DNA of 14,490 nucleotides from Thioalkalivibrio sp. (GTDB taxonomy: Bacteria; Pseudomonadota; Gammaproteobacteria; Ectothiorhodospirales; Ectothiorhodospiraceae), in NCBI GenBank assembly GCA_003555285.1, contig PWGH01000315.1, positions 1 to 14,490 of the forward strand, read 5' to 3'. The notes beneath the pieces were generated by a model, which did not search any database, was not told the origin of the DNA, and saw only the letters and a list, made by a program, of their open reading frames with translations. Made by a program: the position numbers and the translations under genes. Of the stretch, positions 983 through 14,490 are shown piece after piece. How positions within the stretch are numbered: the first letter of the stretch is position 1; every line of letters starts with the position of its first letter.

Positions 983-2908
983 ATGTCCAGGAACCGCCCA
1001 CCCGCGAGCAACCGGCCCCAGGATCGTCCATCATCAGGTGATTCATCCCCGAACCGTTCATCTCCGAACCAGGAGATGCCCGAAAACCGCCAAAGCCGGA
1101 TCGTCACCAGCGGACCCGAGCGCAGCCCGAATCGCGCGATGCTGCGTGCCGTGGGCTTCGGCGACGGCGATTTCACCAAGCCCATCGTCGGCGTGGCCAA
1201 CGCCCACAGCACGATCACCCCCTGCAATCTGGGCATCGGGGCCCTGGCCGAACGGGGCACGGCCGCGCTGCGGGCCGCGGGCGCAATGCCGCAGGTCTTC
1301 GGCACGATAACCATCTCCGACGGCATTTCCATGGGCACCCCGGGCATGCGCTATTCGCTGGTCTCGCGCGAGGTGATCGCCGATGCCATCGAAACGGTGT
1401 GCATGGGGCAATCGATGGACGGCCTGCTGGCCTTCGGCGGCTGCGACAAGAACATGCCGGGGGCGATGATGGCGATCGCGCGCATGAACCTGCCCGCCAT
1501 CTTCGTCTACGGCGGCACCATCCGGCCCGGTCAGTACCAGGGCGAGGATTTGACCATCGTCTCAGCCTTCGAGGCCGTCGGCCGCCATGCCGCCGGACGG
1601 CTCAGCGATGAGGATCTGGCCGGTGTGGAACGCCACGCGTGTCCCGGCGCCGGTTCCTGCGGCGGGATGTTCACCGCCAACACCATGTCCAGCGCCTTCG
1701 AGGCCATGGGCATGAGTCTGCCGTACTCCTCGACCATGGCCGCCGAGGACCCGGAAAAGGCCGACAACGCCGCGCGCTCCGCCGAGGTCCTGGTGGAGGC
1801 GATCCGTCACCAGCGTCTGCCGCGCGCGATCCTGACCCGGGCCGCCTTCGAGAACGCGATCGCCGTCGTCATGGCCATCGGCGGCTCCAGCAATGCCACA
1901 CTGCACCTGCTCGCCATCGCGCACGCCGCCGAGGTGCCGCTATCGCTGGACGATTTCGAAACCATCCGCGCCCGGGTGCCGGTGCTGTGCGATTTGAAGC
2001 CCTCCGGGGCCTATGTCACCACCCAATTTCATCAGGCGGGCGGCGTTCCGCGGGTGATGAAGATGCTGCTGGACCATGGGCTGCTGCATGGCGATTGCCT
2101 CACCATCAGCGGCCGCACCATCGCCGAAACCGTGGCCGATGCCTTGAACGGCAAGCCGGGCCAACCTTCAACCCCTGCCTCAAGCCCTGGCACAAACCCT
2201 GCCTCGGTCCCGGCATCAAATTCGGCCTCGGAGCCGGCCGCAAGTCCTACGTCCGGTTCAGCTACAGACCAACTCTCAGGAAAGATGCCGACAGCTCCAC
2301 CCTGGCCACGGGTAATCCGGCCCTGGGACGATCCGGTCCAGACCAGCGGTCATTTGGCGATCCTGAAGGGGAACCTGGCCCCCGAAGGCGCCGTCGCGAA
2401 GATCAGTGGTGGCTCACAACCGGCGATCACCGGCCCGGCCCGGGTCTTCGATGCCGAGGAGGCCTGCATGCAGGCGATCCTCGGCGGCGCGATCCGTCCC
2501 GGCGATGTGCTGGTGATCCGCTACGAGGGCCCGAAGGGGGGGCCCGGCATGCGCGAGATGCTCGCGCCCACGGCCGCGCTGGTCGGCGCCGGCCTGGGCG
2601 ATCGCGTCGGGTTGATCACCGACGGACGCTTCTCCGGCGGCACGCACGGCCTGGTGGTGGGTCACGTGGCGCCCGAGGCGGCCGTAGGCGGCGCCATCGC
2701 CCTGGTCCAGGAGGGCGATACCATCACCATCGACGCCGGCACCCGGCGCCTGGTTGTGAACGTATCCGAAACCGAGCTGGAACAGCGGCGGCGCCAATGG
2801 CGTCCGCCGCCGCCGCGCTGCCGGCGCGGGGTCCTCGCCAAATACGCCCGACAGGTCGGTTCCGCGGCCCGGGGCGCGGTCACCGACGCGGACGACCCGG
2901 CGTTCTAG
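983..2908 (+). CDS. ilvD: Dihydroxy-acid dehydratase IlvD, with extra N-terminus and linker insertion
   Basis: IlvD dehydrates 2,3-dihydroxy-isovalerate and 2,3-dihydroxy-3-methylvalerate to 2-oxo acids, the third common step of valine and isoleucine synthesis, in the cytoplasm. The match to the shorter [2Fe-2S] IlvD class is very clear. Visible motifs are STITPCN (Cys81), SDGISMG (Asp113), GGCDKNMPG (Cys154, with Lys156 the usual carbamylated Mg ligand), [16 protein letters not shown] (Cys226), [15 protein letters not shown], and [10 protein letters not shown] with the catalytic Ser at about 551. The C-terminus GVLAKYA...GAVTD is typical. At 641 aa it is longer than the usual roughly 550-570. 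About 32 extra Ser/Pro/Asn-rich residues precede [10 protein letters not shown], and a Ser/Pro/Ala-rich insertion of about 40-45 residues lies at 391-443, between the catalytic N-domain and the C-domain beginning VIRPWDDP. The gene stands alone, with no other ilv gene in view. It converges on the RND gene with 11 nt between stop codons. Confidence 0.97.
2155..2311 (+). repeat. Low-complexity insertion inside ilvD (interdomain linker)
   Basis: This stretch encodes residues about 391-443 of IlvD, made mostly of Ser, Pro, Ala, Thr, Gly and Asn. DNA phrases such as 'ccctgcctc' and 'ccggc' recur imperfectly, suggesting decayed tandem expansion. From memory, ordinary short-form IlvD proteins have only about ten residues here, between the 'TIAE' segment and 'VIRP'. 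The frame is kept, and all catalytic motifs on both sides are intact. Confidence 0.7.
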
Positions 2909-2919
2909 CCCCGGCGCGC

Positions 2920-5900
2920 CTATCGGGCCTCCTGGATAGCGGCACCTCGGCGGCGTGGCCGATGGCAGGGCCGTTGGCCCCGGTGCTGCTGCACGGGCCG
3001 ATCGGACCTGGAATCCGGCCTGGGGTCGAGACCAGGATCAGAACCGTGACCGGGCTCGGGGCCGGAGCCGGAACCAGCACCAGAACCAGCACCAGAACCA
3101 GCACCAGAACCGGGACCGGGACCGGGACCGGAACCGGAGTCGGGGTTGGTGTCAGGGTCGGTGTCAGGGTCGGGGTCGGGACCCGAGCGCCCGGACTGCT
3201 TGCGGTCGAACCAGACCAGCACGACCGGGGTGAACAATAGGGTAAAGGGGGTGGCGAACAGCAGGCCGCCGGCGACCGTGGTGGCCAACTGCACCCAGAA
3301 TTGTGTGGACGGAGCCCCCACATAGAAATCCCGGCCGGCGAAGTCGACCGTCCAGGCCAGCACCATTGGCATCAGGCCGAGAATGGTGGTCACGGCGGTC
3401 AGCACCACCGGCCGCAGACGCTGTGCGGCGGCGCGCAGGGCCGCCTCGTGCGGGTGCAGGCCCCAGTCGCGCTTTTCGTTGTAGTTGTCGATCAGCACGA
3501 TGTTGTTGTTGACCACGATACCCGCCAGCGCCAACACGCCGATCCCGCTCATCACGATCCCGAAGGGCTCGCCGCGCACCAGCAGCGCCAGCAACACCCC
3601 TGCCGTGGAAAACACGATGGCCGAAAGCACCAGCCCGGCCTGGCTGAAGCGATTGAACTGGGTGACCAGCATCAGCAGCATCAAGAAGATCGAGAGCCCG
3701 AAGGCCGCCAACAGGAACCCGGCCGCCTCCTCCTGCTCCTCGATCTCGCCGCGAAAGCGGATCTGGACCTCGGGATCCAGCTGCATTTGATCCAACGCAT
3801 TACGCAGGCGGCTCACCTGCTGATCGACCAATAGACCCGATGCCACATCCGCCTCGATGGTATAGGCCCGGCGGCCGTCCCGACGCTTGATCAGCCCCAC
3901 CGCCGGCACCGGCACCAATTCGGCAAAATTGGCGATCGGCACCAGCCCCTGCGGCGTAGGCAGGCTGAGGTTCGCCAGATTCTGCAGGTGACGCTGATCG
4001 GCGGGCAGACGCAGCCGGATATCCACCTCCTCGTCGGTGAACTCCGGGCGGAAGGTGCCGAGCAGGATACCGTCGGTGAGCAGACGCACCCCTTGCCCGA
4101 GCAGCGACACGTCCACCCCGAAGCGGGCGGCCTCCTCCCGATTGAAGCGGACCTCGAGCTCCACGCCCGGCACCGGCAGATCGTCCTCGACATCGACGAA
4201 GCCCCCCACCTCGCGCATCGCCTCGCGGATGTTCCGAATCACCGGCGGGATCGCCTCCGGGGTGCGGCTGCTGGCCTCGATCTCAATCGGCTTGCCTTCG
4301 CCGGGTCCGCGCTCCTGGGTCAGGATCTGCAGCCGCAGCCCGGGCAGGGGCTCGACCCGTGCCCGGATACGGTCGATCACCTCGCTGGCCGGAGCCCGGG
4401 TGCGCCAGTGCGTGAACTCCAGCTGGATCACGCCGATCACATCCTCGGCATAATCGCCCTGCAGGCGCTCGAGGGCGGTCCCGATGGTCCGCCCGTAGAT
4501 CACCGCGACCTCCGGGATGCCCTGCACCGCGCGCTCGACCTGGCGCACCAGCGCATCGGCCTCCCAGACCGACAGATCGCCCCGGGCCTGCACCTGGATC
4601 TGCGCGAAGTCCGGCTCCACCTCGGGAAAGAACTCGACCCCGCGGCCCTGCACCATGTACAGCGCATAGGCGATCAGCAGCACCCCCAGCGTACCCAGGG
4701 CGGTCAGACCCGGATGCGCCAGCAGCACCCGCAGCACCCGGATGTAACGCCCGGTCACGCCATGCAACTCGTCGTGGCGCCCGGCTTCGGCCGCGTGCAC
4801 CTGGCGGCGCTGTTGCGGGCTGGTGGCGCCGCCGGCGCCGACAACGCTGCCGAGCGTCGGCAGGAAGACCAGTGCCATGGCAAGCGAGGCCAGCAGGGTG
4901 ACGATCACCGTCGCCGGCAGGTAGACGATGAACTCCCCCACCATCCCCGGCCAGAACAGCATCGGGGCGAAGACCGCGAGCGTGGTGAAGATCGCCGCCG
5001 TGATCGGCCAGGCCATGCGCTGCGCCGCATTGCGAAAGGCCGCATCCCGGGGCTGACCCTCGGCGATGTTCCGATCGGCAAGTTCAGTGACCACGATCCC
5101 GCCATCGACCAGCATGCCCACCACCAGAATCAGTCCGAACAGGACCGCGATGTTCAGCGTGAAGCCCAACAGGTAGATCACCAGGATCCCGGTCAGAAAG
5201 GCCCCCGGGATCATCAACCCCACCAGCAACCCGCCCCGGAATCCCATGACCGCGATGATCACCAGCGTCACCGCCAGGATCGCGGTGATCACATTGCTTT
5301 CCAGGTCCCCGAGCAAATCTTCGACGTCCTGGGCCTGATCCTGCAGGTAGGTCACCTCCACCGCCGCCGGCCAATCCGCCTGCGTCTGCGCCGTGTCGAT
5401 CAGCGCCCGGACTTCGGCAACCAGGTCGATCACATTCACGCCCACCTGCTTGCGGATCTCCAGCGCCACCGAAGGTTGGCCGTCGATACGGGCAAAGGTC
5501 TCGGGATCGCTCAGGGCCTGACGCACCTCGGCCACGTCGCGCACCCGCACCACGGCGTCGTCCTCGACGCGAACCACCGTATTCAACACATCCTCGACGT
5601 CCTCGATGGTCCCGGGCACGCGCAGCGCGATCCGCCCGACGCCGGTATCGACGGCCCCGGCGGCCACCAGCACATTGTTGCGCTCGATCGCCTCGGTGAG
5701 ACGATCGAATTGCAGCGCGTAGGTCTCGAGCATCAGGGGATCGACGAGCACTTCCATCAGGTCCTCGCGCATGCCGCCGATATCCACCTCCAGGATTCCG
5801 GGCAGCGCCTCGATCTCGTCGCGCAGGTCCCGGGCAAGGCGCGCCAGCGCGCGCTCCTCGACCGGTCCGGACAGGTTGGCGATCAGGATCGGAAACAGCG

Positions 5901-6303
5901 AGACATCGACCTCGCGCACCGTCGGTTCCTCGGCGCCGTCCGGCAGCTCGGGGCGCAGCTGATCCACCTCGTCGCGCAGGTCGGACAGCGCCTGGCGATT
6001 GTCCCAGCCCGGCTCGAAATCCAGCCGTATCATGGCGAAGCCGTCGCCGGCCCAGGAGCGGCTCTCGTCGATGCCGGCAATGGCCAGCAGTTCCCGCTCC
6101 AGGGTGCGCAGCATCAAACGTTCGGCATCCTCGGGGCTGACCCCGGGGTAGGCCACAGTGACGAAGAAGATCGGGATGTCGATCTCCGGAACCGCTTCCT
6201 TCGGGATGATCACGTAGGTGGTGCCGCCCATGATCAGCAACAAAAACAGCGCCAGCAGCACCGTTCGGGCATGGTTGATCGCCCAGGCGATGCCGGCATT
6301 CAC
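2920..6303 (-). CDS. RND-family efflux transporter, inner-membrane permease subunit, with long repetitive C-terminal tail
   Basis: The 1127-aa product is a proton-driven efflux permease of the AcrB superfamily. Visible features in order are TM1 (about 12-33), PKEAVPEIDIPIFFVTVAYPG (34-54), a first periplasmic pore region (55-335), TM2-TM6 (about 338-488, with GMLVDGGIVVTE at 396-407 and FWPGMVGEF at 450-458), a second periplasmic half (about 555-860), and TM8-TM12 (about 862-1031, including GIVVNNNIVLIDNYN at 928-942 and GAPSTQFW at 996-1003). One Asp (400) stands where AcrB has two, and Asn replaces the AcrB Lys940 position. I believe this is normal for this 'LVDG/VVNNN' subfamily. The start is GTG, overlapping the adaptor stop as GTGA, so translation is probably coupled. 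The normal body ends near residue 1036; about 90 Asp/Pro/Gly/Ser-rich then Arg-rich residues follow. The substrate is unknown. Confidence 0.93.
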   Translation of the reverse strand: MNAGIAWAINHARTVLLALFLLLIMGGTTYVIIPKEAVPEIDIPIFFVTVAYPGVSPEDAERLMLRTLERELLAIAGIDESRSWAGDGFAMIRLDFEPGWDNRQALSDLRDEVDQLRPELPDGAEEPTVREVDVSLFPILIANLSGPVEERALARLARDLRDEIEALPGILEVDIGGMREDLMEVLVDPLMLETYALQFDRLTEAIERNNVLVAAGAVDTGVGRIALRVPGTIEDVEDVLNTVVRVEDDAVVRVRDVAEVRQALSDPETFARIDGQPSVALEIRKQVGVNVIDLVAEVRALIDTAQTQADWPAAVEVTYLQDQAQDVEDLLGDLESNVITAILAVTLVIIAVMGFRGGLLVGLMIPGAFLTGILVIYLLGFTLNIAVLFGLILVVGMLVDGGIVVTELADRNIAEGQPRDAAFRNAAQRMAWPITAAIFTTLAVFAPMLFWPGMVGEFIVYLPATVIVTLLASLAMALVFLPTLGSVVGAGGATSPQQRRQVHAAEAGRHDELHGVTGRYIRVLRVLLAHPGLTALGTLGVLLIAYALYMVQGRGVEFFPEVEPDFAQIQVQARGDLSVWEADALVRQVERAVQGIPEVAVIYGRTIGTALERLQGDYAEDVIGVIQLEFTHWRTRAPASEVIDRIRARVEPLPGLRLQILTQERGPGEGKPIEIEASSRTPEAIPPVIRNIREAMREVGGFVDVEDDLPVPGVELEVRFNREEAARFGVDVSLLGQGVRLLTDGILLGTFRPEFTDEEVDIRLRLPADQRHLQNLANLSLPTPQGLVPIANFAELVPVPAVGLIKRRDGRRAYTIEADVASGLLVDQQVSRLRNALDQMQLDPEVQIRFRGEIEEQEEAAGFLLAAFGLSIFLMLLMLVTQFNRFSQAGLVLSAIVFSTAGVLLALLVRGEPFGIVMSGIGVLALAGIVVNNNIVLIDNYNEKRDWGLHPHEAALRAAAQRLRPVVLTAVTTILGLMPMVLAWTVDFAGRDFYVGAPSTQFWVQLATTVAGGLLFATPFTLLFTPVVLVWFDRKQSGRSGPDPDPDTDPDTNPDSGSGPGPGPGSGAGSGAGSGAGSGSGPEPGHGSDPGLDPRPDSRSDRPVQQHRGQRPCHRPRRRGAAIQEAR
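3061..3190 (-). repeat. Hexamer/dodecamer tandem repeats coding the RND C-terminal tail
   Basis: On the plus strand the 12-bp unit ACCAGCACCAGA occurs three times without change (3073-3084, 3085-3096, 3097-3108). It is followed by three ACCGGG hexamers (3109-3126), two ACCGGA hexamers (3127-3138), and decayed GTCGGG/GTCAGG units to about 3180. Read on the minus strand these give SGAGSGAGSGAG, GPGPGPG and DPDPDTDPDT. All units are multiples of three bases, so copy-number change would lengthen or shorten the tail without a frameshift. Confidence 0.9.
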
Positions 6304-7490
6304 CGATCGATCCCGGAAGAGACGTCTTCGGCATTGTCTTGTAACGAACTCCGGTCGGATTCCGTTGGCTCCGACGCGGTCGGGTTCGGCGCGTTTTGCA
6401 CCGGTTCTTGCTCCTGATCTTGCTCCTGGTCTTGCAGCTCGGGGCGCACCGCTTCGCCAGCCATCACGAAGCCCTGGCCGACCGTGATCAGGCGCATTCG
6501 CTCCGGCGGGCCGGTCACCCAGACCCCCTCCGGCTCGGTCCGAACCACCTCGATTACGTGAAACTCGACCCGATTGTCGGCATCGACGGTCTTCACACCG
6601 ACCCGCCCGGCCTGATCGAGACTGACCGTCGCGGGCGAGACCCGGTGGGCGAGAACGGTATCCGTGGGGATCTCGACGCGGGCGCTGATGCCGGAAGGCA
6701 AGGCGCGGTCGGGATTGGGAACCTCGATCTCCACCCGGAAGGTTCGGGTCTCGGGTGCGGCCACCGAGCCGACGAAGCGCACGACCCCCTCGACACGGCG
6801 GCCGTCGGCCAGACGAATCCGGGCGGGCAGGCCGAGCGACACCCGTCCGATCTGGTGCTGCGGCACCTGCACCACCGCCAGTAACGGGTCGTTGCTGATC
6901 ACCTCGGCCGCCGGATCCCCGATCGACAGGAACTCGCCGCGTTCCGCCAGGCGCTGCTCGAGCACGCCCGGAATCGGCGCCCGGATCCGGGTCTGGCGGA
7001 TCTCCAGTTCGATCGCCTCGAGCTCCGCACGCGCCGCTTCGAGTTCCGCCTCGGCGACCTCCAGATCGATCTCCGGCACATGCTGATCCTCGACCAGCCG
7101 CTGGGTCGCCTGGAACTCGCTCTGGCGGCCACGCAAGCGGGCGATGGCCTGCCGGCGCCGGGCCTCGCGGTCGTCCATCGCCAGAATCGCGAGTTCATCG
7201 CCCGGCTCGACGACCGTCCCGGCCACCACCGCCCAACGCTCCAACTGACCCGCCGTCTCCACCCGCACCATCACGCGCAGATCGGGTTCGATCCGGCCCT
7301 GCAGGATCAACACCTGCTCGACCGACTCGGCCATGCGGTGCTCGACGAGCACGCGCATCGGCGCCCATTCCGGCGCCTCGATCGGCTCCGGCGGCTCCCG
7401 GGTCAGCACTCCCGAGGCGATCCAGACCACCGCCAGCAGAATGATGCCGGCGACGGCGGCCAGACGGGTCCAGGGCTTGAATGCGGACAT
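6300..7490 (-). CDS. HlyD/AcrA-family periplasmic adaptor subunit of the RND efflux system
   Basis: The 396-aa product is a membrane fusion protein that links the inner-membrane pump to the outer membrane. Residues 1-30 hold one N-terminal membrane anchor (RLAAVAGIILLAVVWIASGV) with no lipobox Cys. A first lipoyl half lies at about 74-108, followed by an alpha-hairpin rich in Glu, Ala and Arg at about 108-168 (EVAEAELEAARAELEAIELE). The second lipoyl half, IRAPIPGVLEQRLAERGEFL, is at 169-188, and beta-barrel and membrane-proximal domains cover about 200-345. The hairpin is short, as in adaptors that meet the channel tip to tip. The ATG at 7490 is chosen because it gives a clean anchor and has GGTGAG just upstream; upstream codons in this frame are a shadow of the barrel gene. 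The last about 45 residues are Gln/Glu/Asp/Ser-rich and repetitive (DQEQDQEQE). The gene follows the barrel gene after 44 nt and overlaps the pump gene by 4 nt. Confidence 0.92.
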   Translation of the reverse strand: MSAFKPWTRLAAVAGIILLAVVWIASGVLTREPPEPIEAPEWAPMRVLVEHRMAESVEQVLILQGRIEPDLRVMVRVETAGQLERWAVVAGTVVEPGDELAILAMDDREARRRQAIARLRGRQSEFQATQRLVEDQHVPEIDLEVAEAELEAARAELEAIELEIRQTRIRAPIPGVLEQRLAERGEFLSIGDPAAEVISNDPLLAVVQVPQHQIGRVSLGLPARIRLADGRRVEGVVRFVGSVAAPETRTFRVEIEVPNPDRALPSGISARVEIPTDTVLAHRVSPATVSLDQAGRVGVKTVDADNRVEFHVIEVVRTEPEGVWVTGPPERMRLITVGQGFVMAGEAVRPELQDQEQDQEQEPVQNAPNPTASEPTESDRSSLQDNAEDVSSGIDR

Positions 7491-7534
7491 GCGCTCACCA
7501 TGGTTTGCCGGCAACCGGTGTGTGGCCGTGCGTT

Positions 7535-8482
7535 TCAGTAGTGGTAGCGGATTCCGGTGGCGATGAAATTGGAACCACTGGCCTCGCTCACGAGGTCGAA
7601 CGCCCCGGATCGATGATGGATCCGCAACAGGCCCGCCCAACGGCCGTCCGCTTGCGGCGGCGCGAAGGTCAGTTCGGTCACCATGAACACCAGGCCCCGG
7701 CTCGCGGGTCGATCCGGCCGCGCCTCGACCGCGGGTTCGGTAAAGGCATAGGAGGGGCCCAGACCGTAGGCAAAACTGGTGTCCACCCAGCGATCCCAGG
7801 GAAAGCGGCTCCAGCGCAGATTCAGGGCGCCGTTCAGTTCGAAATGATCCTGCTCGCCCCAGTGCCGGACGAGACTCACTTCCGCCTCCAGCAGCAGATC
7901 CTCGCTGAACCGCCGGAGGGTTTGCGCCACCCCGACGGCACCCAGATACGAATCGTCGAATTCGGTTTGCCCCCGCAGGATGTCCACCCAGCGGTTGTCG
8001 GTCCAGCGCGCCCCATACAGGAATACCGTCGTGTCCCGGCCGGCCCGTTCTTGAGCGGCCCATTCTTGAGCGGCCCGTTCTTGAGCGGCCCGTTCTTGAG
8101 CGGCCCGTTCTCGGTCGGCCCGTTCTCGGTCGGCCCGTTCCCCTTGATCGACCCGTTCTGGGTCGGCGCGTTCTTCTTCGTCGGCCCGTTCCCGATGGGC
8201 CCACTCCCGGTCAGCGCGACCGCGCTCGGCCGGGGTTTCGACATTCGTGGCACTTGCGACGCCTGACCAAGCTCCCGAACCGGGTAAAGGAATCACGGGT
8301 TCGGACGCCGACACGGGCATCCAACCGAAGGCCGATTCAGGTTCCGAACCGGGTCCGCCCTTGCCGGCCAAGGCCGTGTCGATCCAAGCGCACAGGATCA
8401 GCGCAACGGCCAGCCAGCCGACCCCTGCGGCCCTGGACCTGAACCTGGCCTCGGGACGATTCAACGTTTGCTTAGCCACCAT
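7535..8482 (-). CDS. Outer-membrane beta-barrel protein, PagL-like (possible lipid A 3-O-deacylase), with pentapeptide-repeat N-terminal region
   Basis: The 315-aa product has a signal peptide (basic residues 11-18, hydrophobic VGWLAVALILCAWIDTALA, likely cut after Ala39). A low-complexity region follows, then at 86-149 degenerate five-residue repeats of ERADR/ERAAQ type. Residues 150-315 have alternating beta-strand character and end in Tyr (GIRYHY), as in outer-membrane barrels. The segment HHRSGAF (289-295) near the last strands fits the H-x-S active-site pattern of PagL-type lipid A deacylases (His290, Ser292), with Glu300 a possible third residue. The spacing differs from Pseudomonas PagL, so catalysis is inferred rather than shown. 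The ATG at 8482 is preferred because it places the signal peptide near the N-terminus. A GTG at 8539 would add 19 residues without a good ribosome site. It is first in a likely operon with the adaptor and pump. Confidence 0.75.
   Translation of the reverse strand: MVAKQTLNRPEARFRSRAAGVGWLAVALILCAWIDTALAGKGGPGSEPESAFGWMPVSASEPVIPLPGSGAWSGVASATNVETPAERGRADREWAHRERADEEERADPERVDQGERADRERADRERAAQERAAQERAAQEWAAQERAGRDTTVFLYGARWTDNRWVDILRGQTEFDDSYLGAVGVAQTLRRFSEDLLLEAEVSLVRHWGEQDHFELNGALNLRWSRFPWDRWVDTSFAYGLGPSYAFTEPAVEARPDRPASRGLVFMVTELTFAPPQADGRWAGLLRIHHRSGAFDLVSEASGSNFIATGIRYHY
8036..8227 (-). repeat. 15-bp tandem repeat array inside the barrel-protein gene
   Basis: On the plus strand, units of the form CGGCCCGTTCTTGAG recur about every 15 bp: four near-identical copies between about 8038 and 8100, then CGGCCCGTTCTCGGT copies and increasingly diverged units to about 8227. 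On the coding strand they read as pentads ERAAQ, ERADR and EWAHR. Because the unit is a multiple of three and has no stop in several frames, other frames on both strands also stay open here. The gradient from exact copies near 8060 to decayed copies near 8200 suggests recent expansion at one end. Confidence 0.92.
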
Positions 8483-8745
8483 GGCAGCGCATCGTCGCAC
8501 TCCGTTAGGGCATCCGGGAGTCGTTTCCCGGGTGGACACACGGCCGAACCGACCCCACGATCCGGTGCGCAGAAACCGCGTGGTCGCGGTCCAGGTCGAT
8601 CGTCGTTCGAAGCGGAATGAATGCGAGGGTCAGGCTTGTCGTCGGGCTCGGGCCTCGGCTGCGTGTGCTGGAACCCGTATGGTCGCGTGAAACGCCCTGG
8701 ATTTCCCTGCGTATCATTCCCCAGGCCCGTCGATGTCCAGCGCGC
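8483..8745. other. Intergenic region between the long Hsp70 gene and the barrel/efflux operon
   Basis: These 263 nt separate two minus-strand gene groups and should contain the 3' end of the chaperone transcript and the start of the efflux operon. I see no hairpin with a T-run after the Hsp70 stop (8746), and no clear -35/-10 pair before 8482. A minus-strand open frame crosses it, but it overlaps the Hsp70 end and lacks protein-like composition. Nothing else is supported. Confidence 0.5.
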
Positions 8746-11718
8746 TCAATGCACCAGGCGCAGACCCGCTGGCAGCGATTCACCAAAGACCTGCTGCTCG
8801 GCGGCACGATCGAGTTCGGTGATCGCCTCGACCATGGCGACCCAGACCTCGGGCGCCTTCGCCAGGCGCAAGCGCTGCGCCACTTCGGCCCGCTGCGCCG
8901 CGGGCAGATCGCGGGCCCGATCCCCGCTCATCCGGCTGAGCATCGTTGCAGCAAAGGCCGCCGGCCGCACCGTCTTCCAGTCCAGATCCAACACCTGCTG
9001 GAGCCAGTCGGCGGCGATCTCCGGTGGTATCACCGCATGCGCGCTGCCATAGAAGGGCACGCGGGCGCCGAGCCGACCGACGGCCCACCACCCCTGCGGC
9101 GACTCCCCCGGCCGGCGCAGGCGTTCGAGCAGCCAGCCGCCGACCTCCACCTTGCGCGCGATCGACAGCCGCTCCAGCCCGCCGACCAGGCGCACCATGT
9201 CGTCATACCCCTGCTTCTTCGGTCCCGGGGGCTTCTTCGGCGGCGTCGGCCCCAGCGGCGTCAAGTACCAGGCCATGTCCTCCAGCAGGGTTTCCTGCGC
9301 GAGCGCATCGAGGCCCCCGGAGATCCGGCGCCACAGCGTCCACCACTCGGCCCAGACCCGGGCCTCGGGCACGAACTGCACGCCCTGGGGATACAGCGAC
9401 CACAGTTGCTCGACCCGCCACTCATCGAGCGGGTAGCCATACCCGGGACGCAGGCAGAAGCCCATCAGGTTGAACCACTGGCGTTCGTGATCGGCCGAGC
9501 GCCGCCGGCGCCGGGCACCGGCCCAGAGCGGCTCGAAGAGCTCGCGCAGCAACGGAATCGGCCAATCGTCCCGCGGCCCCAGAATCTTTTCCAGCGCACC
9601 GCGCAGGCCCCTCACCTCGCGCGGATCGACCTGCTGCGAGCGCGAGCCGTAGCAGCGTTCGATCCGGGCCGCCGCCTCGCTGATGCGCGGATGCGCTTCG
9701 CCTACCGGGGTCATTGCGCCGGCGGCCGTCGACGCATCGTTCGGCGATCGCGGCGCCTCCGTTCCGGCACGCAACTGGAATTCAAGCTTCCAGCGCCGGC
9801 GTTCGTCGTCTTCGGCGACGCAGGCCAGGGCCAGGGTGCCGATCTCGGTCGGGGTGGCCACCAACTGCACCCGGACCTCGCGGGTGCGCGAGGCGCCGTC
9901 GCGGGCACCGACCACCGTCTCCAGTGGCGGCAGGAAATGCAGGGTGTCCGCGTCGAGAGTCACCACGGCCCCCGGCCGGCAGGGCGCATCGGCGGGGGAA
10001 GCGGCCAGTCGAAACTGCACCGGCTGACCCAGCCGCAATGCGAAGCTGCGTTCGGTCAACCGCAGCTCGTGGCCCTCCTCGGTCCCGCGCGGCAACACGC
10101 AAACGCCGCGGGGCCGGCCCTGTTGCGTCGCGTCCAGCAGCAGAAACAGGCTGCGCGCGGCACCGCCGCCGATCGTACGGCCCCAGCCGCGGCGCGCCAT
10201 CGCATAGGCCACCGCACCGCGGGCCACGGCCAGTTCGGGATCACCGTTTACCAATTGATGCAACGGCGCACCCCGCCAAGCGGTGAGTTGATCGAGCAGC
10301 CGCCCAGCGAGCATCCCGCTGCGAAAAACCCCGCCGTTGAGCAGCACCGCATCGGGCATCGATGAGAATCCCGAGTCGGGCGCGGCAACCCCCAGGGCCT
10401 GACGCGCGGCAGGGGCGTGTTGGGCCAGAAAGGCGGCGAGGTGGCGCGTGATCGCCGGATCCGCTGCATAAGGCAGGCCGAATTCGACCAACGCGCCGCG
10501 TGTGCGCCGCGGTCGTTCCTCGGCCGCCGCCGGCGGAAAGAAGCCCTCCAGCACCATGTGCCGAACCTCATCGCGGGTCAATTCGGTCGAGCGCGCCGCA
10601 CCGATCAGCCGGGCGCCCGCCCCCAACACGGTCACGCTCGCACGCTCCGGCCCGTCGGCTTCGAGCAGCCGCTCCTTGGCAGTGCGGCATTGCTGGACCA
10701 GCTGCGACAACTGCGCCGAACCCAGACGCGCACCGGATTCGGTCGCCAGCCGCCCTTCGGCGACGTGGGCCAGCGCCAGGTCCATGTTGTCGCCACCCAG
10801 CATCAGGTGCTCGCCGACGCCGATGCGGGTGAGCCGCGGACCCGCCGCTGTGGGCTCGATTTGGATCAGGGTCAGGTCCGTGGTGCCGCCGCCCACATCG
10901 CAGACCAGCAGCAGCCGCAGATCTTCCGGGAGTGCCGCGGCATCGTCCCGATGCCGAGCCAGCCAATCGTAGCAGGCCGCCTGCGGTTCCTCGACCAGCC
11001 GCGCCTGGTCGAGGCCGGCGAGCCGGGCCGCCTCCACCGTCAGCGCGCGGGCCGCCTCGTCGAAGGAGGCCGGCACCGTGAGCACGATCTCCTGCCCTTC
11101 CAGCCGGTGCGCCGGAAAGGCCCGGTTCCAGGCGGCGCGCACGTGGGCCAGGTAGCTTGCGCTTGCGGCCAACGGGGAAACCCGGGGCACCTCGTCGGGT
11201 GCACCCCAGGGCAGGATGGGCGCGGTGCGATCCACCGCCGGGTGCGACAACCAGCTCTTCGCGCTGGCGACCAGCCGCCCGGGCACCCGCGAGCCGAGTT
11301 CCCGCGCGAGCTGCCCGAGGACGGCGTCCGGTGCCGCTGCCGAGACCTCAGCGGGACCCGGGCTGGACACGGACTCATGCACGGACTCATGCACAGGGCC
11401 GGAACCCGAGCCAGCCGCCGGGCCGGAACCCGGGGGCTCGTCGGATTCCCGATCGGCCCAGGGCAGGCGGATATCGCGCACCGGCAGCTCGCCGGGCGCG
11501 GGATGGTAGCGCAGCGAGGGCAGCAGCGGGCGCGCGGCGATCTCGCCCGGTGCGACCAGCTGCTCGATGTCGAACACGCGCACCGGCGTGTCCGGACCCC
11601 CGTCGGTGTCCGCGTAGGCCACGACGGTGTGGGTGGTGCCCAGGTCGATGCCGACCAGGTAGCGCGCCGCTGCAGGCGGTGGCGGTGGCGGTGGCGGTGG
11701 CGGTGGCGGACTAGACAC
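8746..11718 (-). CDS. Long Hsp70-family protein with DUF3731-like C-terminal region
   Basis: The 990-aa product belongs to the divergent Hsp70/YegD-like group. The nucleotide-binding domain shows GIDLGTTHTVVAY (23-35), ASAKSWL (151-157), VPASFDEAAR (215-224), VEEPQAACYDW (242-252, where DnaK has NEPTAAA), CDVGGGTTDLTL (273-284), LGGDNMD (307-313) and LLNGGVFRSG (459-468). After ARGAVAY (499-505) the hydrophobic DnaK linker (VLLLDV) is absent. A beta region spans about 520-650. The C-terminal part (about 675-990) is helical, basic and Trp-rich: RRRRRSADHERQW (736-748), LRPGYGYPLDEW (756-767), EWWTLWRRISGGLD (791-804). I recognise this as the DUF3731 region found with such Hsp70s. The start is GTG with GGGG 5 nt upstream, 21 nt after the short Hsp70 stop. 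Odd features are a 12-residue poly-proline run at 4-15 and a Gly/Ser/Pro-rich insertion at about 92-128. The client is unknown. Confidence 0.9.
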   Translation of the reverse strand: MSSPPPPPPPPPPPPAAARYLVGIDLGTTHTVVAYADTDGGPDTPVRVFDIEQLVAPGEIAARPLLPSLRYHPAPGELPVRDIRLPWADRESDEPPGSGPAAGSGSGPVHESVHESVSSPGPAEVSAAAPDAVLGQLARELGSRVPGRLVASAKSWLSHPAVDRTAPILPWGAPDEVPRVSPLAASASYLAHVRAAWNRAFPAHRLEGQEIVLTVPASFDEAARALTVEAARLAGLDQARLVEEPQAACYDWLARHRDDAAALPEDLRLLLVCDVGGGTTDLTLIQIEPTAAGPRLTRIGVGEHLMLGGDNMDLALAHVAEGRLATESGARLGSAQLSQLVQQCRTAKERLLEADGPERASVTVLGAGARLIGAARSTELTRDEVRHMVLEGFFPPAAAEERPRRTRGALVEFGLPYAADPAITRHLAAFLAQHAPAARQALGVAAPDSGFSSMPDAVLLNGGVFRSGMLAGRLLDQLTAWRGAPLHQLVNGDPELAVARGAVAYAMARRGWGRTIGGGAARSLFLLLDATQQGRPRGVCVLPRGTEEGHELRLTERSFALRLGQPVQFRLAASPADAPCRPGAVVTLDADTLHFLPPLETVVGARDGASRTREVRVQLVATPTEIGTLALACVAEDDERRRWKLEFQLRAGTEAPRSPNDASTAAGAMTPVGEAHPRISEAAARIERCYGSRSQQVDPREVRGLRGALEKILGPRDDWPIPLLRELFEPLWAGARRRRRSADHERQWFNLMGFCLRPGYGYPLDEWRVEQLWSLYPQGVQFVPEARVWAEWWTLWRRISGGLDALAQETLLEDMAWYLTPLGPTPPKKPPGPKKQGYDDMVRLVGGLERLSIARKVEVGGWLLERLRRPGESPQGWWAVGRLGARVPFYGSAHAVIPPEIAADWLQQVLDLDWKTVRPAAFAATMLSRMSGDRARDLPAAQRAEVAQRLRLAKAPEVWVAMVEAITELDRAAEQQVFGESLPAGLRLVH
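11371..11432 (-). repeat. Duplicated 12-bp segments coding an Hsp70 insertion
   Basis: GGACTCATGCAC is repeated exactly at 11371-11382 and 11383-11394, coding the VHESVHES stretch. GGCCGGAACCCG is repeated at 11397-11408 and 11421-11432, coding part of the Gly/Ser/Pro run. Together they make the insertion at about residues 92-128 of the long Hsp70. The short Hsp70 has no counterpart here: its PWGPRPGYVVGELARSQG aligns directly to the flanks. Confidence 0.85.
11674..11710 (-). repeat. Hexanucleotide microsatellite coding an N-terminal poly-proline run
   Basis: Five GGCGGT units plus one GGCGGA lie in tandem at 11675-11710 (plus strand). On the coding strand they read as alternating CCG and CCA, giving twelve prolines just after the first three residues of the long Hsp70. 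The hexamer keeps the frame, so slippage would change the proline number but not switch the gene off. Confidence 0.95.
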
Positions 11719-11739
11719 TCGGGCCCCAGGGTATCGTTG

Positions 11740-13590
11740 TCATTCCGGTTCCGGCCGGCCGCGCACGTCGAGCTCGACCCGCCAGCGCTGCTCGCCGCTG
11801 CGCGGCACCGCCTCGAGCTGCAGGGTCCCGAGTTCGGTGACCCGCGCGTGCAGCCGGACCGGAACCACCTCGCCCGGCGAGCGGCCATTGGCGGGCAGGG
11901 TGACCTCGATTTCGGGCAGTTCCTCCATCGTGTCCGGGGGCCAGTCCTCGACCACGGTGCCGACCGGATCCTCGCGCCGCACCGAGGAGCCGAAGAAGCG
12001 AAAGCGCACCGGTTCGCCGACCACCAGGCCGACCTCCTGGGGCGGCAGGTCGGCCTCGGTACCCTCTTCCATGCCGAAGGGGGCGACACACAGCGCCGAC
12101 AACGGCGGCTCGACACCCGGCACCGCCGGCATCGCGCTCTCGACGCCGACGTAATAGCTGCGCGCGGTGCCGCCGCGGATACGCACCCCCCGGCCGGTGC
12201 GCACGAAGCCGTGGTAGGCCGCACCGCGGGCCACCGCCAGATCGAGATCGGCGCCCTGAATGCACCGCGCCGGGGCGGCCGCTTCGCCCTCGAGCCAGTC
12301 GTTCAGCACCTGCATCACCCGATCCGCAAGGACACCGGCCTTGAACACCCCGCCATTGAACAGCACCGCGGTCGGATACAGGAAGGTCGCTCCCTCCGGG
12401 CGAAGGCCCTCGAAGCCCTGAAGTTCCTCGGTCGCGGCCATCTGGCGGCTGAGAAAGGCGGCGAGATGACGCGTCACCGCAGGATCCTGCGCATACGGCA
12501 AACCCAGGCGCGTCAGTGCCGTCCGGGCACGAACCGCCGGCCGGGCCGAAACCTCCACCACCGGAAAGAAGCCATCGACCAGGGTTTGCGTGACCTCCTC
12601 GCGGGTCAGCTCGGTGCGCAGCGTGGCGCCGATCAGGCGCGAGCCCCGGCTGGGCACCACCACGGGCACTGCATCCAGATCCGGATCCAGCAACAACTGT
12701 TCCTTGGCGGCGCGGCAGCCGTGCATCAGGGCCTGCAGCTGCCAGGCCTCGAGGGTGGTTCCGTCGGCAGCGAGCTTCGCGCGCACCCGGTGCGCCAGCG
12801 CCAGATCCATGTTGTCGCCGCCGAGCAGGATGTGATCGCCCACCGCCACCCGATGCAGTTCCAGACTGCCGTCCTGTTCGGTGACCGCGATCAGGGACAG
12901 GTCCGTGGTCCCGCCACCGACGTCCACCACGAGGAGCACGTCGCCGACACTCACCTGCTCGCGCCAGGTGTCCTGACTGCCCTGGATCCAGCTGTAGACC
13001 GCGGCCTGCGGTTCCTCGAGCAGGATCATGTCCTCGAGGCCGATCGCCTGCGCGGCCTGCGCGGTCAGTTCCCGCGCTGCGGGGTCGAAGGAGGCCGGCA
13101 CCGTCACCGCGACGCGCTGCTGCGCCAGCGGGTGCTCCGGATGGGCATCATCCCAGGCATCGCGCAGGTGCTCGAGGTAACGGATCGAGGCCTCCAGCGG
13201 CGAGAGGCGCGGCACTTCCTCCGGCGCTTCGGCCGGGAGAATGGGCGCATGCCGGTCCACCCCCGCGTGACAGAGCCAGCTCTTGGCGCTGGCGACGAGT
13301 CGGATCGGGGTGCGCGTACCCTGGCTGCGCGCCAGTTCGCCGACCACATACCCGGGTCGTGGGCCCCAGGGCAGCGTGAGGTCGGTCTCCGCCAACTCGT
13401 CGGGATGCGGCAGGTATAAAAAGGAGGGCAGCAGATGACGCGCCTCGACGGTGCCCGGCGCGACGAGTTGGGGCACGGGCAGGATCTCGTCGGTCACCCT
13501 GGTGCCCGGTTCCTGAGTGAGGTCGATCCGGGCAAGGGCGCAGTGCGTGGTCCCCAGATCGATGCCCACCGCATAGCGGGCCGCACTCAC
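11740..13590 (-). CDS. Short divergent Hsp70-family protein
   Basis: The 616-aa product is an Hsp70-type ATPase, homologous to the long Hsp70 downstream and probably its ancient paralogue. Motifs are GIDLGTTHCAL (9-19), SAKSWLCHAG (101-110), VTVPASFDPAAREL (162-175), LEEPQAAVYSW (191-201), VVDVGGGTTDLSL (221-233), LGGDNMDLALA (256-266), RAAKEQLL (293-300) and LFNGGVFKAG (410-419). After ARGAAYHG (454-461) the sequence runs GVRIRGGTARSYYVGV in place of the DnaK linker. A beta region of about 140 residues ends the protein, with no helical lid, so it stops at about DnaK length without the DUF3731-like part. The GTG at 13590 is chosen because GGGG lies 8 nt upstream and it gives MSAARYAVGIDLG. 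A GTG at 13599 would add three residues. It is the middle gene of the DUF2760-Hsp70-Hsp70 module. No J-protein or exchange factor is seen. Confidence 0.9.
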   Translation of the reverse strand: MSAARYAVGIDLGTTHCALARIDLTQEPGTRVTDEILPVPQLVAPGTVEARHLLPSFLYLPHPDELAETDLTLPWGPRPGYVVGELARSQGTRTPIRLVASAKSWLCHAGVDRHAPILPAEAPEEVPRLSPLEASIRYLEHLRDAWDDAHPEHPLAQQRVAVTVPASFDPAARELTAQAAQAIGLEDMILLEEPQAAVYSWIQGSQDTWREQVSVGDVLLVVDVGGGTTDLSLIAVTEQDGSLELHRVAVGDHILLGGDNMDLALAHRVRAKLAADGTTLEAWQLQALMHGCRAAKEQLLLDPDLDAVPVVVPSRGSRLIGATLRTELTREEVTQTLVDGFFPVVEVSARPAVRARTALTRLGLPYAQDPAVTRHLAAFLSRQMAATEELQGFEGLRPEGATFLYPTAVLFNGGVFKAGVLADRVMQVLNDWLEGEAAAPARCIQGADLDLAVARGAAYHGFVRTGRGVRIRGGTARSYYVGVESAMPAVPGVEPPLSALCVAPFGMEEGTEADLPPQEVGLVVGEPVRFRFFGSSVRREDPVGTVVEDWPPDTMEELPEIEVTLPANGRSPGEVVPVRLHARVTELGTLQLEAVPRSGEQRWRVELDVRGRPEPE

Positions 13591-13621
13591 CCGCAGCACC
13601 CCGGACGCGGAACGGGCGTCT

Positions 13622-13666
13622 CGACCCGGGCATGGCCGACCCGGGCGAGGGTGACCCGGGCGAGGC
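13622..13666. repeat. Three 15-bp intergenic tandem repeats
   Basis: The units are CGACCCGGGCATGGC (13622-13636), CGACCCGGGCGAGGG (13637-13651) and TGACCCGGGCGAGGC (13652-13666). They fill part of the 121-nt gap between the DUF2760 stop and the start of the short Hsp70. The C/G-rich cores could pair with one another in RNA. No terminator T-run follows, so the three genes may still share a transcript. Confidence 0.85.
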
Positions 13667-13711
13667 CGTTACCGCCGCTGCAGGTGCGATGCCGGACCCT
13701 CGCTGCCGCCG

Positions 13712-14269
13712 TCACAGCTCGACCTCGGCGGGCGCCAGAATCCGCAGATCATGGCCCTGCACCACCTGCGGCAGGCGCAGTTCCCGAACCCGCCAGCCCC
13801 GATGCACCAGGGTGCCGGTGAACGGCGGCTGACCGACCACGTTCCCGATCAGCCGCACCTCGGCGGCATCGAAGCCGGCCGGCAGGCTGACCCGGCTGCC
13901 CTCGGCTTCGGTGCGAACGGGCTCCAGCGTGCCATGGTCATGCAGGGCCTTGCGGCAGCCCTGGTGCACCACACGGGCCGCCGCACCGATTTCGGCATCG
14001 GAATAGCGGTCGACCCCCTCCTCGATGAAGTCCAGAAAACGGCCTTCCTGCTGGAGCAGCCCCAGCAGTTGCAGCGCGGCATCGGGCGATGCCTCGGTGA
14101 GGGCTCGCTCCGATTCCGGCTTCGATTCCGGCTCCAGTGCCGGGGGCCGCCGCTCGCCCGCCCGCAGTGCCGCCACCGCGTTCGCGAATTCCGGATCCAC
14201 AAGCACCCGCCACCACGCGACGAAGCTCAGGGCGAGACGGCGGAAGAAGGTCATCTGCGACTGCGTCAT
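13712..14269 (-). CDS. DUF2760 domain-containing protein
   Basis: The 185-aa protein begins MTQSQMTFFRRLALSFVAWW, where residues 8-24 could be an amphipathic or weak membrane-contacting helix. A Glu/Pro/Ser linker (about 43-60, with PESKPESE) leads to the domain. Features I associate with DUF2760 are ALQLLGLLQQEGRFLDFIEE (65-84), YSDAEIGAAARVVHQGCRKAL (89-109), LEPVRTEAEGSRVSLPAGFD (115-134), GNVVGQPPFTGTLVHRGWRV (142-161) and the ending LRILAPAEVEL. Function is unknown; the domain is commonly found beside Hsp70 genes of this type (from memory). The ATG at 14269 is supported by AGGAG 6 nt upstream, one of the best ribosome sites in the window. It is the first gene of the module, 121 nt before the short Hsp70. 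A partner or substrate adaptor for the two Hsp70s is a reasonable guess, but a guess. Confidence 0.88.
   Translation of the reverse strand: MTQSQMTFFRRLALSFVAWWRVLVDPEFANAVAALRAGERRPPALEPESKPESERALTEASPDAALQLLGLLQQEGRFLDFIEEGVDRYSDAEIGAAARVVHQGCRKALHDHGTLEPVRTEAEGSRVSLPAGFDAAEVRLIGNVVGQPPFTGTLVHRGWRVRELRLPQVVQGHDLRILAPAEVEL
14112..14135 (-). repeat. 12-bp duplication in the DUF2760 gene linker
   Basis: GATTCCGGCTTC (14112-14123) and GATTCCGGCTCC (14124-14135) are adjacent near-identical units. They code the EPESKPESE stretch between the N-terminal helix and the folded domain. This is a small, in-frame example of the expansion seen in the neighbouring genes. Confidence 0.75.
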
Positions 14270-14275
14270 GGACGT

Positions 14276-14280
14276 CTCCT
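14276..14280 (-). promoter_or_regulatory. Ribosome binding site for the DUF2760 gene
   Basis: AGGAG on the minus strand lies 6 nt before the ATG at 14269. It decides this start over an upstream in-frame ATG at 14344 and a downstream ATG at 14254. Confidence 0.7.
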
Positions 14281-14452
14281 GGTGACTGCACGGGCTCTGT
14301 ATGCTGCGCATGCTATCAGAGTGCCCTGCGGCCTTGGCCGGCACCGTCGGCGTCGCCGCCGCGGTCGAACCCGGAGCGAAGGCGCTATTTGACTCGATCG
14401 ACGCTGGGCCTTGTCGATCTAGAGCCAGGGCGACGGTCGACGACCCGTTCGC

Positions 14453-14490
14453 TCCCCGGTGTGGACCCCCGGTGTGGACCCCCGGTGTGG
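14453..14490. repeat. 13-bp intergenic tandem repeat at the window edge
   Basis: The units are TCCCCGGTGTGGA (14453-14465), CCCCCGGTGTGGA (14466-14478) and CCCCCGGTGTGG (14479-14490, cut by the edge). The array probably continues beyond the window. The unit is not a multiple of three, unlike the clear arrays inside genes, which fits a noncoding location. Confidence 0.9.

Follow-up and report, generated by a model that had tools for sequence, protein, structure and literature searches.

The window analyzed here is contig PWGH01000315.1 (assembly GCA_003555285.1), a 14,490-base contig assigned to Thioalkalivibrio sp. with a G+C content of 69%, in which short tandem repeat arrays recur inside genes that share no function. 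The window encodes IlvD, an RND permease and its HlyD-type adaptor, a barrel-like protein, two Hsp70-like proteins (the first with a DUF3731 tail), and a DUF2760 protein, in addition to an unnamed first reading frame. The label "barrel" was taken over from the initial annotation, and the protein so called matches no named family. Arrays were called with Tandem Repeats Finder (TRF) at a score of at least 50, and overlapping calls were merged. In total, 10 merged arrays covering 622 bp were obtained, 8 of which are in genes and 2 of which are nongenic.

1042..1070, plus strand: IlvD N-terminal extension (SSPNRSSPN), 15-bp unit, 1.9 copies, TRF score 51
2168..2271, plus strand: IlvD interdomain insert, degenerate 12-bp (24-bp) array, TRF score 63; the TRF call ends at 2238 and the pattern fades after it
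3030..3180, minus strand: RND permease C-terminal tail (DPDTDPDT...GPGPGSGAGSGAGSGA), 6/12-bp array, TRF scores 50 to 82
6406..6435, minus strand: HlyD C-terminal tail (QDQEQDQEQE), 12-bp unit, 2.5 copies, TRF score 53
8037..8202, minus strand: barrel protein linker preceding the conserved core (ERAAQERAAQERADRERAD), 15-bp unit, 8.8 copies, TRF score 152
11368..11394, minus strand: Hsp70-DUF3731 loop (VHESVHES), 12-bp unit, 2.2 identical copies, TRF score 54
11675..11709, minus strand: Hsp70-DUF3731 polyproline N terminus, 6-bp unit, 5.8 identical copies, TRF score 70
13622..13668, no strand: 112-bp gap between the second Hsp70 and DUF2760 genes, 15-bp unit, 3.1 copies, TRF score 59
14107..14135, minus strand: DUF2760 linker (EPESKPES), 12-bp unit, 2.4 copies, TRF score 51
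14454..14490, no strand: contig edge upstream of DUF2760, 13-bp unit, 2.8 identical copies, TRF score 74, cut by the contig end
3-623: unnamed reading frame, no array at score 50

The initial annotation described window-wide, in-frame short arrays in unrelated genes, and this pattern is real. Dinucleotide shuffles of the whole window (n = 200) yielded a mean of 0.25 and a maximum of 2 arrays versus the observed 10, and codon-order shuffles (n = 200), counted for genic arrays only, averaged 0.4 and never exceeded 4 versus the observed 8. The initial annotation had missed the 15-bp array at 13622. That array lies just upstream of the second Hsp70 gene in the same, open frame, with no ATG, GTG, or TTG start and with a stop just past the array. 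The unit length is divisible by 3 in all eight coding arrays, all of which are in open frames, and the unit at the contig edge is 13 bp. Four arrays (IlvD N terminus, HlyD, Hsp70 loop, and DUF2760) are close to the threshold, with 1.9 to 2.5 copies and scores of 51 to 54. The described placement of the arrays in N termini, linkers, or tails was borne out insofar as they fall outside the matched domain stretches; the Hsp70 loop array is nonetheless inside the nucleotide-binding region, yet outside the stretch matched by Pfam. One repeat element or mobile unit common to the arrays was considered and rejected, as the consensus units differ from array to array.

Synonymous codons one repeat unit apart were compared with the match expected from the codon usage of the genes; the codon pairs overlap and are not independent, and the results are indications rather than tests. 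Identical codons were found at 27 of 29 pairs in the barrel array (14.0 expected), at 21 of 27 in the RND array (10.8 expected), and at 9 of 10 in the array at the Hsp70 N terminus (4.4 expected). Because identical codons recur in register beyond what usage predicts, the comparison supports an origin of these three arrays by DNA duplication. We consider it probable (about 0.72) that the arrays are ordinary, mostly coding minisatellites, that is, local duplications retained where the frame and the fold are spared. Stretches of 6 to 15 bp would be duplicated locally, every array deriving from its own neighboring sequence, with replication slippage or short-homology recombination as the putative molecular step, and selection would then retain frame-preserving changes in tails, linkers, and loops, which are sites of presumably low structural order. 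This reading is supported by the finding that arrays with differing units hit both genes shared across the Thioalkalivibrio order and the Hsp70-DUF2760 operon, which did not turn up in the order within the limits of the searches given below. The keeping of frame is a generic outcome of purifying selection in any genome, and the position in linkers is likewise generic.

The RND-HlyD pair has a copy with 90% DNA identity on contig C54 of genome G586. Among 25 RND loci in the Thioalkalivibrio order, 19 had readable tails, and the tail is 96 amino acids long in the window, 60 in the G586 copy, and 5 to 28 in the 18 other readable loci. A block of 90 contiguous bases of the RND array is present in the window and missing in the G586 copy, and the HlyD tail, which follows the TIGR01730 match (54-350), is 12 bases (one unit) longer in the window; these unit-sized copy differences are seen against one 90%-identical copy, from another species. 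The RND tail of the G586 copy is likewise long and rich in P, G, and D. The length differences would be compatible with a gain in the window and with a loss in G586 alike, and a gain in the window is favored because the other RND loci have shorter tails. The suggestion of a process at the DNA level thus holds at least for the arrays of the barrel linker, the RND tail, and the Hsp70 N terminus, from their codons, and for the RND and HlyD tails, from the unit-sized gaps, and may not extend to the IlvD insert, which lacks such codon identity.

On C54 (locus L203), the RND-HlyD pair is flanked by 3' remnants of IlvD (322-435, 114 bp, 88%) and of the barrel gene (5078-5150, 73 bp, 89%), and a citrate synthase gene adjoins the segment. 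The genome's own IlvD, located elsewhere, is only 76% identical to that of the window, and G586 is for this reason not a sister genome; it has 18 arrays in 232 kb (20 pieces), or 1.12 per 14.49 kb. Since the remnants flank a 90%-identical segment while the genome's own IlvD is at 76%, the pair in G586 looks like an acquisition from a lineage related to that of the window, still bearing scars of the donor neighbors. Alternatively, C54 could be a misbinned or chimeric contig.

The barrel protein of the window is 315 amino acids long, and its nearest homologue has 231 amino acids and no array (81% in BLAST over 64%). The repeat linker was found in none of the 19 other aligned barrel proteins (20 aligned from 98 found, with the window's own included). 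The Hsp70-DUF3731 loop with VHESVHES is 25 to 34 amino acids longer than in six homologues chosen from 120 listed. In IlvD, the spacing between conserved motifs is 127 residues in the window versus 80 in 10 of 10 related loci. The resulting insert of 47 residues (approximately 141 bp relative to genome G565) falls between Pfam PF00920 (66-382) and PF24877 (444-632) and is absent from 10 of the 11 homologues in the alignment (from 120 listed, with 7,999 scored). The N-terminal extension has no counterpart in 8 of these 11, and the other 3 have unrelated extensions. Over its first 1,064 bases, the IlvD match is nearest at the DNA level to genomes G565, G592, G591, and G595 (82 to 83%). The DUF2760 linker, which is repetitive in distant species, speaks against additions that are lineage specific in every case. 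The 650-residue IlvD homologue P0112 also has an insert at the interdomain linker of IlvD, a different and longer one that duplicates adjoining sequence, so this linker accepts additions in other proteins as well. Upstream of IlvD, a 9-bp ACCACGAAG repeat is located at positions 827-853 with a TRF score of 47; similar sequences presumably occur in many environmental genomes.

Several observations weigh against an origin of all of the arrays as recent local duplications. The short arrays provide just three to five codon pairs each, too few for judgement, with identical codons at 5 of 5 in the Hsp70 loop (2.3 expected), 4 of 5 in HlyD (3.1), 3 of 4 in the IlvD N terminus (1.5), and 3 of 3 in DUF2760 (1.3). 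The IlvD insert has identical in-register codons at 4 of 10 pairs versus 3.8 expected, and because this array lacks codon identity above usage, the insert may be old or perhaps no tandem duplication at all. The DUF2760 protein has no insertion relative to locus L005, and KPEPKPEP stands at the same linker in three Methylococcaceae loci (L002 to L004). As distant homologues carry a similar linker, the DUF2760 array is neither an addition nor a fresh expansion. Finally, the assembled array lengths may be wrong.

To place the density in context, 100 control chunks of 14,490 bases were taken from 12 genomes. Eight of these genomes belong to the Thioalkalivibrio order and supplied 80 chunks, including 20 from G595; the other 4, of the same class but outside the order, supplied 20. 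Two control chunks contain 5,000 masked bases each. At score 50, the controls have a mean of 1.43 and a maximum of 7 arrays per chunk, and none of the 100 reaches the 10 of the window. The proposed density above relatives holds at this score and weakens as the threshold rises, with the window equaled or exceeded by 1 of 100 chunks at scores 55 and 60, by 2 at 70, by 9 at 80, and by 20 at 100. In terms of array bases covered, the window is exceeded by 2 of 60 chunks. The rise with score threshold and the base coverage together indicate that the excess of the window is one of the number of modest, short arrays. The unit lengths also differ from those of the controls. The best period is 6, 12, 13, or 15 bp in 9 of the 10 window arrays versus 24 of 193 in the controls. 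Counting only periods of 6, 12, or 15 bp, the window has 8 arrays and the four control groups have 0.11 to 0.58 per 14.49 kb, the highest control rate being that of G565, one of the nearest relatives. The window was chosen for looking repetitive, which inflates its contrast with the controls. Among the control arrays of short period, the unit is divisible by 3 in 84 of 106 coding and 21 of 49 noncoding arrays, a rough comparison based on a crude gene caller that scored 2 nongenic window arrays as coding and with control arrays straddling gene ends omitted. Homopolymers of at least 5 bases number 39 in the window (control mean, 36.5). The density of such arrays on this contig is above that of the sampled relatives, which may reflect either a local chance cluster or a lineage trait.

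A lineage-wide raised rate of 6- to 15-bp duplication, a minisatellite-forming mutator state in which the whole genome would resemble the window, would account for 10 arrays where 100 control chunks reach at most 7, for 8 arrays with periods that are scarce in relatives, for the spread over genes of apparently different ancestry, and for the 13-bp array outside genes. However, the observations come from one contig picked out for its repetitive look, the count is matched or exceeded by 1 of 100 chunks at score 60 and 20 of 100 at score 100, no array reaches score 50 in the second Hsp70 gene (11740-13599) or the first reading frame, homopolymers are not enriched, and the sampled relatives carry few 6-, 12-, or 15-bp arrays. 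We therefore regard a lineage-wide rate as doubtful. Its fuller form, in which an uncultured Thioalkalivibrio-like lineage duplicates 6- to 15-bp stretches genome-wide at several-fold the rate of its relatives, independently of mismatch repair, and young in-frame minisatellites fill disordered regions, is unlikely. Loss of mismatch repair itself was considered and rejected: homopolymers of at least 6 bases number 4 in the window versus a control mean of 7.9, and the named window genes are open. The earlier pointer to mutS/mutL is accordingly weak. Units or loops of 12 to 15 bp generally exceed the size that mismatch repair controls.

Selection at the protein level could also favor the additions, for example as flexible charged tails in a haloalkaliphile. 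The added segments abound in P, G, S, D, E, R, and Q, and the long P/G/D-rich RND tail recurs in the G586 copy. The proteins and their compositions are unlike each other, however; in-register codon identity points to DNA copying in three arrays, the tails at the other 18 readable RND loci in the order are 5 to 28 amino acids long, and the edge array is noncoding, all of which make such selection improbable as the driving force. The 13-bp array coincides with the very end of the contig, and assemblers commonly break off at repeats, which would suggest an assembly or contig-end artifact. With 8 arrays within genes of open frame and unit variants in several arrays, an artifact is very improbable as an explanation of the set. 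Ordinary minisatellites, locally duplicated and filtered for frame and fold, remain the preferred reading.

The genes that carry the arrays differ in their distribution. A search of 47 genomes from the Thioalkalivibrio order, run without a positive control, yielded no Hsp70-DUF3731 gene, and the region from 8.7 to 14.3 kb had no match among the rows listed from relatives, with six candidates scored per genome. The arrays therefore seem to be spread over genes of mixed ancestry. The Hsp70-DUF2760 operon occupies window positions 8746-14269, and relatives of the second Hsp70 occur in Competibacteraceae, Methylococcaceae, and Burkholderia; this Hsp70 aligns with that of L005 over 552 residues with no gap. 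A plasmid origin was rejected, as the plasmid search returned 8 records only, at 72 to 75%, with the second Hsp70 in four from Burkholderia and part of IlvD in four from Ensifer.

If the density is only local, the window offers a neat case in which duplicated DNA, filtered for frame, lengthens unstructured protein segments, and a 90%-identical comparator is at hand. If it is genome-wide, the lineage would act as a natural mutator of units beyond the size range of mismatch repair, and the origin of its disordered regions could be dated.

The Thioalkalivibrio literature turned up by our searches concerns other matters, judging from titles and the opening of abstracts. In the available portion of one study, short tandem repeats are on average not enriched in bacterial genomes and are enriched at indels (PMC12699852). 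Intergenic TAACTGA heptamer repeats are described in Beggiatoaceae in an excerpt of another report (PMC4679880); like the window, they represent short tandem repeats in sulfur-oxidizing Gammaproteobacteria, but the units there are 7 bp whereas those of the window are 6, 12, or 15 bp. Recurrent 7-bp arrays of the same kind as the Beggiatoaceae repeat, TTGTCAG and CCTTGAA, occur in G595 (L164 and L165). Protein tandem repeats, according to the accessible part of PMC7230257, are frequent at sequence flanks, are enriched in disorder-promoting residues, and are mainly born by duplication, from which, as far as that part describes them, the window differs in no principle, being one contig. Comparable coding arrays are present in relatives, including a PEPEPE linker preceding a SPOR domain (L135), GDPGDP and LEQGLEQG (L113), and a chaperonin GGM tail (L085). 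In G565, a Thioalkalivibrio reading frame (L109, 1-2283) contains a 1,633-bp array with a 12-bp unit and long Thr-Asp runs (DTDTDT). Coding minisatellites and variable-number tandem repeat loci are an established kind in bacteria. The window resembles them in its in-frame tandem units of 6 to 15 bp in tails and linkers, several arrays having near-identical units, and differs in its density (ten in 14.5 kb). Since relatives show similar coding repeats, the arrays of the window are a locally dense case of this known kind.

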